DNA of 64,000 nt from Spirochaetota bacterium (GTDB lineage: Bacteria > Spirochaetota > UBA4802 > UBA5550): contig JAGNKX010000016.1 in assembly GCA_017999915.1 (NCBI GenBank), positions 1-64,000 of the forward strand. The letters run 5' to 3'. This document shows, piece after piece, positions 1,032 through 59,621 of the stretch. Both the position numbers and the translations under genes were made by a program. The number at the start of each line of letters is the position of its first letter. Position 1 is the stretch's first letter. The notes beneath the pieces are model-generated. The model was not told the DNA's origin. It was given only the letters and a program-made list of their open reading frames with translations, and made no database searches.

Positions 1032-2468
1032 ATGGGATTTACCTCTATAATTTTCCTCTTCTATTTTCTTCCGCTGGTGCTGCTGCTGTTTTTTTCAGTG
1101 CCGGGAAAGCTCAAGTTCCCCCTCATCCTCGGGGTGAGCTACCTGTTTTACCTCTGGGGGTCCCCCACCGGGGTCGTGGTCCTGCTTTTAGCGACGGTCA
1201 TGGACTACCTCTTCGGAAATGCCATCCACGGCGCCGGCGACCAAAAGAGGAAAAAACTGCTCATAGCCGTCTCGGTGACTCTCAACATCCTGGTCCTGGT
1301 CTATTTCAAGTATACCAATTTCTTCATCGGCGAGATCAACCGCCTCCTGGGAAGCCTCGACATGGCGACCATCTCCTGGAAGGTCGTCATCTTTCCCGTG
1401 GGGATATCCTTTATCACCTTCCACAGGATAAGCTACCTGGTGGACATCTATTACGGCAAGGCGGCGCCGGCGAGGAATATTTTCGAATATGCCCTCTACC
1501 TGGTAATGTTCCCCAAGGTCACGATGGGCCCCATCGTCCCTTACCGCGACATCGCGGAACAGATAAAGAAGCCGCAGTTCACCTTCGAGGACATCTTCGA
1601 GGGAAGCATCCGCATCTGCATCGGCATCGCCAAGAAGGTGCTCCTGGCCGATCCGATGGGCAACGTGGTGAACGGGATCTTCAGCATGGACATTTCCTCC
1701 CTGACCGTGGGATACGCCTGGCTCGGCGTCGTATCCCACAGCTTCCAGATCTATTTCGATTTCGCAGGATACACGGACATAGCCATCGGCATCGGGCGCA
1801 TGATGGGGTTCACCCTCCCGGAAAACTTCTATCGGCCCTACTGCGTCGGCAATTTCACGGAGCACTGGAAGCGCTGGCACATCTCCATGGTCAAGTGGTT
1901 CAGGGAATACCTTTACATCTCCCTGGGGGGCAATCGCGTCAGCAAACTGAACACCTACCGCAACCTCTGGGCTGTGTTCATCCTCTCCGGTTTCTGGCAC
2001 GGCGCCAACTGGACATACCTGGCCTGGGGCATCTATAACGGCCTTTTTATTTTCCTCGAACGGATCTTTCTCCTGAAGATACTGAAGCGCCTCCCAATGC
2101 CGCTGCAGGTGCTGCAGTTCTACATGGTCCTCCTGGTCGGGCACGCGCTGTTCCGGTGCACCACCATCACCGAGGCCTTCAGGTACATACACCGCATGTT
2201 CGACGTGACGGCCATCGGCGCGATCAAGTCCCCGGTGCTGCTGACGAACCTTATCGGCAACAGGGAGCTCTTCGTCTTCTTCGTGTGCGTGGTCATCTGC
2301 TTCTTCCCGGAACGGTACCTTGACAAAATCCGCGAGCTGGTCGCGACTCGCCTGAGCGAGCGGAGCGTCACGGGCCTGAAGATCGCCGGCGCCTGCGTCC
2401 TGGTGGTGTTTTCCCTGATGGCGATGATAAACAACAGCTTCAGCCCATTTATATATTTCAGGTTCTAA
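1032..2468 (+). CDS. MBOAT family O-acyltransferase (AlgI-like)
   Basis: This is a polytopic membrane O-acyltransferase of 478 residues, the AlgI/DltB type that moves acetyl groups across the membrane onto polysaccharide acceptors. MBOAT hallmarks are clear: the HWKRWHISMVKWFREYLYI block around residues 277-296 and the catalytic His in SGFWHGANW at about residue 323, matching the AlgI position. Long hydrophobic segments run from the N-terminus to the C-terminus. The next gene starts two bases after its stop and encodes an AlgJ/AlgX-like partner, so the pair probably acetylates an exported glycan. The glycan is unknown; no alginate polymerase genes are present. The ribosome site ahead of this ATG is weak. 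Confidence 0.9.
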   Translation: MGFTSIIFLFYFLPLVLLLFFSVPGKLKFPLILGVSYLFYLWGSPTGVVVLLLATVMDYLFGNAIHGAGDQKRKKLLIAVSVTLNILVLVYFKYTNFFIGEINRLLGSLDMATISWKVVIFPVGISFITFHRISYLVDIYYGKAAPARNIFEYALYLVMFPKVTMGPIVPYRDIAEQIKKPQFTFEDIFEGSIRICIGIAKKVLLADPMGNVVNGIFSMDISSLTVGYAWLGVVSHSFQIYFDFAGYTDIAIGIGRMMGFTLPENFYRPYCVGNFTEHWKRWHISMVKWFREYLYISLGGNRVSKLNTYRNLWAVFILSGFWHGANWTYLAWGIYNGLFIFLERIFLLKILKRLPMPLQVLQFYMVLLVGHALFRCTTITEAFRYIHRMFDVTAIGAIKSPVLLTNLIGNRELFVFFVCVVICFFPERYLDKIRELVATRLSERSVTGLKIAGACVLVVFSLMAMINNSFSPFIYFRF

Positions 2469-2470
2469 CG

Positions 2471-3619
2471 ATGAACGGAAAAAAAGCATTCATAATCGCC
2501 GCCAACCTCGTCATCGCGATCTTCGTGATCCAGACGCACCTGAAACCGTTCCCCGACATGGTCCTGAAGGGCGCGGAGCAGAAGATCCCGCTCCAGATGC
2601 CGACGGGAGCGGACCTCTTCAGCGGAAAATTCCAGGCCGCGGTGGACCAGTGGCTCAAGCAGCATGTCGGCTTCAGGGGATTCTTCATAAAGTGTGACAA
2701 CCAGGTCAACTACTCGCTCTTCAGCGAATTCTCGCGGAACAACCCCCGCAAGGTCGTCCTCGGAAAGGACAAGTACCTCTACGAGCAGCCTTACATTGAC
2801 TATTACAACCGCATCAACCAGGCCAAGCCGGAGGCCCTGGAGGCGAAAGCCGTATCGCTGAAGCTTTTACAGGAAAAGCTCCTGAAAAAAAACGTCAGGC
2901 TCCTGCTGCTGATCACCTCCAGCAAGACGAGCATCTATCCGGAATTCCTGCCGGACCGGTTCATCCTGCGCGACAACCTGGGTAAAAACGATGAGTATCA
3001 GAATTTCCTGCCGGTCCTGAGAAAACACGGCATCAACCATATCGACGGACGGGAACTGCTGCTTCAAAAGAAAGCCGCCTCTGAGCCGAACCTCTACCCC
3101 ACCAGCGGCTCCCACTGGAGCCTCTACGGCAGCTACTTCTTCACCACTGCGCTCGTCGATCGGATCGAACGGCTTCTCGGAAAAAGGGTGACCCATATCG
3201 GCTGCAAAAAGGTCGCGCGGACCCGGGAGCCGTTGGAGCTTGACAGCGACATAGCCCGCCTCGGCAACATCCTGTTCACGCGGAGCCTCTTTACCGAATA
3301 CCTCTATCCCGAGACCTACCCCGTCGGCGGCGCCGGTTCATACAAGCCCAGCATGCTGATGGTGGGCACCAGCTTCTGCTGGAATATCATACCACATCTT
3401 GAGAAGAACGGCTTCTTCTCGCGCCTCAATTTCTATTACTATTTCAACACCGACCATTCATTCCCCGCCGGGCGGCACGACCCGATCGACAAAGCCCGGG
3501 TCGACTGGAAGGGAGACATCTTCAAGCGGGACATCATCCTCATTGAGATCAACGAGATCGCCTTCAATGAAACAGGCTTCGGCTTCATAGAAGAAGCCCT
3601 GCGTGAACTGGACAAATAG
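2471..3619 (+). CDS. AlgJ/AlgX-like SGNH-hydrolase-fold acetyltransferase partner
   Basis: A 382-residue membrane-anchored protein: an uncleaved-looking hydrophobic helix at residues 5-22 leads into an extracytoplasmic SGNH-like domain. Two motifs typical of the AlgJ/AlgX/DltD-related acetyltransferase group are seen: TSGSHWSLYGSYF (His of the catalytic pair) near 215-227 and MLMVGTSFCW (candidate Ser nucleophile in a GTSF block) near 297-306. The gene follows the MBOAT gene by two bases, so the proteins are probably made together: the MBOAT protein delivers acetyl groups and this protein transfers them to a polysaccharide. The acceptor cannot be told from sequence. Confidence 0.8.
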   Translation: MNGKKAFIIAANLVIAIFVIQTHLKPFPDMVLKGAEQKIPLQMPTGADLFSGKFQAAVDQWLKQHVGFRGFFIKCDNQVNYSLFSEFSRNNPRKVVLGKDKYLYEQPYIDYYNRINQAKPEALEAKAVSLKLLQEKLLKKNVRLLLLITSSKTSIYPEFLPDRFILRDNLGKNDEYQNFLPVLRKHGINHIDGRELLLQKKAASEPNLYPTSGSHWSLYGSYFFTTALVDRIERLLGKRVTHIGCKKVARTREPLELDSDIARLGNILFTRSLFTEYLYPETYPVGGAGSYKPSMLMVGTSFCWNIIPHLEKNGFFSRLNFYYYFNTDHSFPAGRHDPIDKARVDWKGDIFKRDIILIEINEIAFNETGFGFIEEALRELDK

Positions 3620-38103: not shown

Positions 38104-38157
38104 AAGGTGTCAGAGTACAAGAGAATAGAAGATTTTTATGAGGGTGTCAGAGTAAAA
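38104..38157 (+). repeat. Two AAGGTGTCAGAGTA repeat words
   Basis: AAGGTGTCAGAGTAC at 38104 and GGGTGTCAGAGTAAAA at 38142 share a core found again at 39021, loosely at 39061 and 39112, on the minus strand at 36262-36275, and five times at 63263-63477. Confidence 0.6.
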
Positions 38158-38226
38158 TAATCCGCAAAATAAACCCTCCTTGGTAAGATTATAATATTAG
38201 GATTATTAAGATAGATCTAACAGTTT

Positions 38227-38374
38227 CCTGAAAAACTCCCTCCCTGGAGTTTTTCAGGGTCGGTTTTACGAAGTGAATTCGTAAAACCTCACATTTTTCT
38301 CGGCTAATACCTCGAAAAATGACGATACATCCATATATCGTTTAGCAGTTTGCTGTTTTTCAGCAAACTGCTAA
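38227..38374. repeat. Array of five consecutive perfect hairpins
   Basis: Five inverted repeats stand back to back: 38227-38258 (13-bp arms, CCTGAAAAACTCC), 38262-38288 (11-bp arms, GGTTTTACGAA), 38292-38321 (8-bp arms, CATTTTTC), 38322-38341 (6-bp arms, ACGATA) and 38342-38374 (14-bp arms, TTAGCAGTTTGCTG, T5 loop). Gaps between them are zero to three bases. All listed arms match exactly. The function is unknown; a structured RNA or a mobile palindromic element is possible. Confidence 0.75.
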
Positions 38375-38546
38375 TCAGAAAAAATATTATTATAAAAAAA
38401 ATGTTAAAGGTTTAGATGATTAATGCCGAAGAAATAAATACAAGTTGATATATGGTAATTCCCTCCCGATTTTGCCATATTGTAGACTTGGCACTGCGTT
38501 TTAGGAGAAGGCAGGATAGCCGCCCAGCTATTCTGCTTTCTCTTTT

Positions 38547-38951
38547 TTACTCCTTAACATTTTCAGGTACTTTTTCCAGAACTACCGGCTTAAAACCTTT
38601 CAGTTCCCCGATTATCTGGCCAAGATTTCCAACATTCTGGATAACAAATGTAACATAATATTCCATACCCTCATGCAGATTCAGCATATCAGATGCTATG
38701 CGCTTTTTTAAAAACCGGTCAGATATATCAAACTCGATATCATGATTTTTTTTATCGTAAAATGTAATTTTTTCAAAAATCTTATCTAAATGTTTCAATT
38801 TCAGGTGAAGCGTAATAGTTTTCGATTTGTAATTATGAATATTTTTAGCAATCACGCTTAGCAGATTGTTTTTTTCATCGGTTTCATTTATATTTTGGGG
38901 AAAACCATTAATCGAAAAAAACAACAATAGAATCAGGACAATTCTTTTCAT
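38547..38951 (-). CDS. Small exported protein of unknown function
   Basis: A 134-residue predicted secreted protein: signal peptide MKRIVLILLLFFSINGFPQ, then a Lys/Ile/Asn-rich mature part with a predicted beta-rich fold (TITLHLKLKHLDKIFEKITF, GMEYYVTFVIQNVGN). No family is recognised. Its base composition and codon use are more AT-rich than neighbouring genes, and it lies in an island of hairpins and repeats, so recent transfer is plausible. AGGA precedes the ATG at 38951 by about 11 bases. Confidence 0.6.
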   Translation of the reverse strand: MKRIVLILLLFFSINGFPQNINETDEKNNLLSVIAKNIHNYKSKTITLHLKLKHLDKIFEKITFYDKKNHDIEFDISDRFLKKRIASDMLNLHEGMEYYVTFVIQNVGNLGQIIGELKGFKPVVLEKVPENVKE

Positions 38952-39020
38952 ATACGGCATCCTAATATTTAATATAAGATGATTTATCTGCATCTTAAAT
39001 ATTACGAAATCATTATCAAC

Positions 39021-59143: not shown

Positions 59144-59621
59144 CCTTGAACTAATTTTCCATATTGAGGGCTTCGCCCTCAACCCTCCTGCCGCAGGAGA
59201 GACCCTGCGGGGCTTTTAAGGGGCTTCGCCCCTTTGACCCTGTAAATATTTAAACGAAATACATAAGAAATACGCATTAGCACTATACACGATCCGTAGT
59301 AAGGGCTACGCCCTCAACCCTCCTACAGCAGGGTAGACCCTGCGGGGCTTTTTAGGGGCTTCGCCCCTTTTACCCTATAAATATTTAAACGAAATATATA
59401 AAAAATAAGGATTAGCACTATACACGCTCCGTAGTGAGGGCTACGCCCTCAACCCTCCTGCCGCAGGGGAGACCCTGCGGGGCTTTTAAGGGGCTTCGCC
59501 CCTTTGACCCTGTAAATATTTAAACGAAATACATAAGAAATACGCATTAGCACTATACACGATCCGTGCTTCCGCGCGCGTCTCTATTAATGTCGGAATA
59601 TCGCCCTGCCGGATTAAGCTT
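59144..59621. other. Gene-free region dominated by tandem repeats
   Basis: This spacer between the small ORF and the RseC-like gene is almost filled by the three-unit tandem repeat at 59166-59568; no gene is supported. Confidence 0.6.
59166..59568. repeat. Tandem repeat of 135 bp, three copies
   Basis: Units begin at 59166, 59301 and 59436. Copies 1 and 3 are nearly identical; copy 2 has diverged. Each unit carries three hairpins in the same order: GAGGGC-TTC-GCCCTC (copy 1 at 59166-59180; copies 2 and 3 have TAC in the loop), CCGCAGG / CCTGCGG (59191-59210) and AAGGGGC-TTC-GCCCCTT (59218-59234), then an AT-rich tail with GTAAATATTTAAACGAAAT. Confidence 0.85.

Follow-up and report, generated by a model that had tools for sequence, protein, structure and literature searches.

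Insertion sequences (IS) of the IS5 family are reported to make YTAR target duplications upon insertion (PMC10359306). Bacterial MITEs are small, non-coding, multi-copy elements that have terminal inverted repeats and a target duplication in common with an IS, and REP/BIME palindromes are short palindromic intergenic repeats. The hairpin array described here was found in an uncultured Spirochaetota MAG (G000; 5.46 Mb, 29 contigs), on a stretch of 64,000 nucleotides that was analyzed as a whole and is called the window below. Like the IS of the IS5 family (the NCBIfam NF033581 group, with a YTAR target), it has terminal repeats of ~20 bp, an end-specific match to an intact IS (L137) and 4-bp YTAR-like duplications, but the element in the window lacks a transposase gene, is much shorter (150 bp against 1.35 kb) and has an unrelated interior. 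With bacterial MITEs it shares all of the properties listed above; it differs from them in that five covarying hairpins in a fixed order make up the whole interior, in the occurrence of a variant with ~56 further hairpin bases, and in that an autonomous partner of the window element was not found in the same genome. From REP/BIME palindromes, which are likewise short, palindromic and intergenic, it is set apart by the defined ends of a DDE transposon, with terminal inverted repeats and with target duplications. A MITE is an ordinary kind of element; the regular hairpin interior is unusual.

Inspection of the sequence at 38227-38374 showed five exact back-to-back hairpins with arms of 13, 11, 8, 6 and 14 bases, separated by gaps of 3, 3, 0 and 0 bases (Table 1). 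The calculated folding energy of the array was −69.9 kcal/mol for the plus strand and −77.4 kcal/mol for the minus strand (z = −10.2 and −10.6), and none of 200 shuffles equaled these values. When 148-base segments were compared over the 64-kb window in 37-base steps, the two with the most bases in perfect hairpins both overlapped the array. The next hairpin-densest stretch, at 59150-59560, is composed of near-tandem ~140-bp units rich in GC palindromes (GAGGGC..GCCCTC, GGGGCTTCGCCCC). The five hairpins reported in the earlier note are thus present where it had placed them, far above chance (folding z about −10). Its left edge had to be moved, as the repeat unit begins at 38217, 10 bases before the first arm. 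The window copy accordingly covers 38217-38374 and consists of a 150-bp element flanked on both sides by CTAA as a direct repeat. The ends of the element form a 19-nt inverted repeat with 89% identity. Stop codons occur in all six frames of the 150 bp, so the element has no transposase gene of its own. A search of the whole window against Rfam at the gathering threshold returned a single tRNA and no match for the array, in line with the earlier view that no known RNA family is involved.

Table 1. Coordinates of the hairpins and of the parts of the element, in window positions.
Feature	Position	Strand	Remarks
Left target-site duplication, CTAA, 4 bp	38217..38220		Flanking 4-mers equal in 24/37 copies
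MITE proper, 150 bp, non-coding	38221..38370	+	Boundaries set by aligning 16 standard G000 copies
Left terminal inverted repeat, CAGTTTCCTGAAAAACTC	38221..38238	+	Also found at the ends of IS5-type elements from related genomes and from other phyla
Hairpin 1	38227..38258	+	Arms of 13 (38227-38239/38246-38258); left arm inside left terminal repeat
Hairpin 2	38262..38288	+	Arms of 11 (38262-38272/38278-38288); 4 covarying pairs
Hairpin 3	38292..38321	+	Arms of 8 (38292-38299/38314-38321); consensus adds an inner GGC/GCC stem
Hairpin 4	38322..38341	+	Arms of 6 (38322-38327/38336-38341); CGGTAC/GTACCG in relatives
Hairpin 5	38342..38374	+	Arms of 14 (38342-38355/38361-38374); right terminal repeat doubled in inversion, CTAA included
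Right terminal inverted repeat (GCTGTTTTTCAGCAAACTG on the plus strand)	38352..38370	-	Matches right end of the intact L137 IS
Right target-site duplication, CTAA, 4 bp	38371..38374		4-mer comparison of copies

With positions 38200-38400 as the query, BLAST gave 39 matches in the same genome, spread over many contigs. The genome contains 16 standard full-length copies (158 bp with the flanking 4-mers) and five longer copies in which GC-rich hairpins add ~56 bases between hairpins 1 and 2. A further ten or so are truncated or minimal, the smallest (L031 and L035) being a bare end pair around a loop. Hairpins with an ATCCT loop (GCGCATCCTGCGC, GGACATCCTGTCC) were noted in the ~56-base extra part of the long variants, which were seen in two species (L025-L029, L205, L206, L208). 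Divergence from the consensus amounts to 1-6 changes in most standard copies and reaches 15 in outliers. Three congeners (G001, G003 and G004) carry the same array, mostly at 84-91% identity. A covariance model detected multi-copy diverged members in another genome of the family (G013) and in one of the order (G033), as well as one weak match each in G008, G016 and G026, and the five hairpins stay in register across genera. The BLASTN and covariance searches suggested in the earlier note thus yielded dozens of dispersed copies in the same genome and diverged members in related genomes; since other copies were found and the stems of the aligned copies covary, its core idea stands. No match to the element was found in plasmid and phage collections, and a literature search found no published report of this element family.

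The motif CAGTTTSCTGAAAAAC is present at both ends of the element in inverted orientation. The genome contains 53 occurrences of it (28+25), compared with 4 (2+2) for a reversed control. The same or a near-identical end borders IS transposase genes or their remnants in four related genomes (G002, G023, G031 and G039), and a truncated IS bearing both ends was found in G003. In a scan of 84,980 species genomes the exact 21-base end was found at 64 loci from many phyla, and most of the sequences read were elements of 100-330 bp with both ends. Public contigs with the terminal motif include those of 'Spirochaetes bacterium RBG_13_51_14', 'RBG_16_49_21' and 'Zod_Metabat.30'. L137 is an intact 1.35-kb IS with CTAG on both flanks. 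Its left end matches that of the window element on the left, and its right end that on the right; the stretch common to IS and MITE is confined to ~20 bp per end. The L137 transposase scored 250.8 bits on the NCBIfam IS5 model NF033581, which passes the cut-off of 140. An IS1182 parent had first been suggested by a transposase fragment from G002, which fits the IS1182 model about equally well (E 1.3e-39). The full-length L137 transposase, however, passes the IS5_4 cut-off and fails that of IS1182, and on the basis of this protein and of the 4-bp YTAR duplication the parent was assigned to IS5. Within the genus the IS5-type transposase occurs as broken fragments only. Searches of the G000 genome with PF13751, NF033581 and query proteins found no IS5-family transposase with these ends, which for a MAG is a weak negative. 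Multi-copy ISs frequently drop out of MAG assemblies, and the source IS of the window element may be extinct or lost from the genome; a MITE does not strictly need a partner in its own genome.

The same terminal repeat, together with YTAR duplications, was also encountered on further MITE families, each with an interior of its own (L168, L143, L160, L171, L159, L131, L136 and others), in Acidobacteria, Alphaproteobacteria, Nitrospira, Deltaproteobacteria and other groups. At positions 2377-3021 of locus L077 (G020) a fragment of an IS256-type transposase is followed immediately downstream by the same 21-base end, an arrangement that possibly represents a chimeric element.

Target duplication was examined by comparing the 4 bases outside CAG...CTG on the left with those on the right in a permutation test. 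The flanking 4-mers were equal in 24 of 37 genus-family copies, where about 16 would be expected, and in 20 of 37 elements from other phyla, where the expectation is 7; in both sets none of 20,000 permutations gave as high a number. Rare 4-mers agreed as well (CTAT/CTAT, CTAG/CTAG and TTAA/TTAA). The target is mainly CTAA in this group, and CTAG, CTAA, TTAG or TTAA elsewhere. Longer duplications (5-9 bp) were also looked for outside the element, with a negative result. None of the eight relatives checked carries the element beside rsgA; the intergenic DNA there is too diverged for a base-exact empty site. The neighborhood of rsgA, conserved block and small gene is kept in most of the eight, and ilvD was seen in the sole locus that was long enough.

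The many copies, the ends shared with IS5-type transposons and the 4-bp YTAR-like duplication lead us to conclude that the array is very probably one copy of an IS5-family MITE, a dispersed non-coding unit with IS5-type ends. The same three properties bear out the mobile palindrome family that the earlier note had offered as one of its readings. The element is probably moved by a borrowed IS5-type transposase: a DDE enzyme of this type, encoded elsewhere or once present, would recognize CAGTTTSCTGAAAAAC at both ends and would insert the element at intergenic CTAA-like sites.

The placement of the copies fits insertion into AT-rich intergenic DNA combined with purging of genic insertions. All 31 copies examined were intergenic by rough gene calls, often near the 5′ ends of genes, and by the same crude calls, of the 30 copies for which both neighbors were called, a single one lay between convergent genes. 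The calls were made with a simple codon-usage script that missed some genes (e.g. the one at 38547-38993), and the placement statistics are therefore indicative only. This intergenic but rarely convergent placement argues against a role in termination. A REP/BIME-like repeat or bidirectional terminator used by the host at gene ends would also be short, palindromic, intergenic and multi-copy, but there is no T-tract after hairpin 1 or hairpin 5 and the element has IS5-type ends with YTAR duplications, which makes such a function highly improbable. Even less can be said for integron recombination sites (attC), which the element resembles in hairpin shape only. The copies occur one at a time on many contigs, not as one array that alternates with cassettes, and IS5-type transposition accounts for both ends and duplications; we regard this possibility as negligible.

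The array had been described as lying in a gene-poor island, which is partly correct, but a conserved small gene and a small-RNA-like block adjoin it on the right. The gene (38547-38993, minus strand) encodes a protein of 148 aa with a signal-peptide-like start and lies between the small-RNA block and ilvD. It stays next to rsgA in the family, and its product has no match in Pfam or NCBIfam. The candidate small RNA beside the MITE spans window positions 38405-38548 (plus strand) including its promoter, with a single-copy block at ~38440-38548 (plus strand). Matches to this block were found in 41 of the 59 genomes searched (G000 included); the order is represented almost completely, and the 13 other genomes of the phylum gave no match. 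A sigma-28-like promoter, TAAAGGTTT-N11-GCCGAAGA (TAAAGNTTT, 11 bases, GCCGA), is recognizable in nearly all of 30 aligned loci. The block further has a near-invariant CCCUCCCG loop, and the hairpin of its intrinsic terminator is capped by a GCCGCCCAGC loop; the predicted product is ~110 nt long and has a CCCUCCC loop. No credible Rfam match was obtained. Its covariation shows the G-U excess typical of a genuine RNA. The block looks like an undescribed small RNA that, going by the promoter alone, is perhaps part of the flagellar regulon. This candidate is more novel than the MITE. A second dispersed short repeat, GGTGTCAGAGTAAA, occurs at window positions 38106, 38143, 39023, 63264 and 63296 and elsewhere; the genome has 47 such sites against 1 for a control, some of them direct pairs 32-37 bases apart.

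The stems of the MITE covary. An alignment of 29 copies contained 48 double-changed cells, compared to 10.8 in shuffles, and 16 covarying pairs, compared to 5.6, and slid partners gave at most 9 cells. Significant covariation, a very stable fold and the position of the examined copies between predicted genes, often near 5′ ends, would also suit a host-domesticated structured RNA or cis-acting mRNA element, with transcribed hairpins under RNA selection and copies that regulate neighboring genes. However, the MITE stems had 18 G-U pairs and 33 A-C mismatches on the plus strand, whereas the RNA-like block ~65 bases away showed G-U-tolerant covariation with 98 G-U against 13 A-C. Furthermore, the stems of the G000 copies had 0.0170 private changes per site and the loops had 0.0195 (Fisher p = 0.63), and the changes in stems mostly broke pairs. 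Together with the absence of the element from the same locus in relatives and the lack of an Rfam match, this makes a host RNA improbable. A deficit of private changes in stems was seen in G004 (odds ratio 0.61, p = 0.10) and in the pooled data (0.71, p = 0.12), both non-significant; this slight deficit may indicate weak selection on inserted copies. In all of these counts, 'private' changes may take in unsampled subfamilies. In G004 there were also five private compensated double changes, against 0.14 expected, and L019, a close copy in the G000 genome, has a private compensated double change in hairpin 1. The lack of a G-U excess, the decay of stems at about the loop rate and the compensated doubles of G004 argue against RNA selection by the host and favor DNA-level maintenance in the propagating lineage. 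The selection on the array considered in the earlier note receives only indirect support: the stems covary, but in individual copies they change almost at the loop rate, and there is no strand-specific sign of RNA.

For an IS5-family MITE whose body is made up of the five hairpins, no host function is needed to explain them. Pairing would persist in the propagating lineage by a DNA-level process, with single inserted copies decaying freely. Template switching could correct one arm against the other, or transposition itself could require foldback DNA. Template switching has been argued as a mechanism for hairpins in general (PMC8794818). Within the MITE reading, the stems could result from mutation only, with template switching rewriting the arms and the element gaining nothing. 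This is a serious possibility, though somewhat short of an even chance: the described mechanism, the excess of private compensated doubles in G004 and the double change in hairpin 1 of L019 point to it, but the numerous private pair-breaking changes imply that correction is slow, and the conserved register of the five hairpins across genera suggests that loss of a hairpin is also removed in the propagating lineage. More tentatively, we propose a transposon that consists, over its entire body, of chained DNA hairpins whose pairing is maintained either by templated correction of the arms or by foldback-dependent transposition.

The terminal repeat ties together IS5-type elements and MITEs across Spirochaetota, Nitrospira, Acidobacteria, Deltaproteobacteria, Alphaproteobacteria and other groups. 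If the proposal is true, a hairpin-chain transposon would be a natural system for the compensatory evolution of stems without RNA selection. Compensatory base-pair changes are usually taken to prove that an RNA is functional. The strong covariation of this family, which is most likely selfish DNA, calls for caution in covariation-based RNA discovery and provides a control for it.
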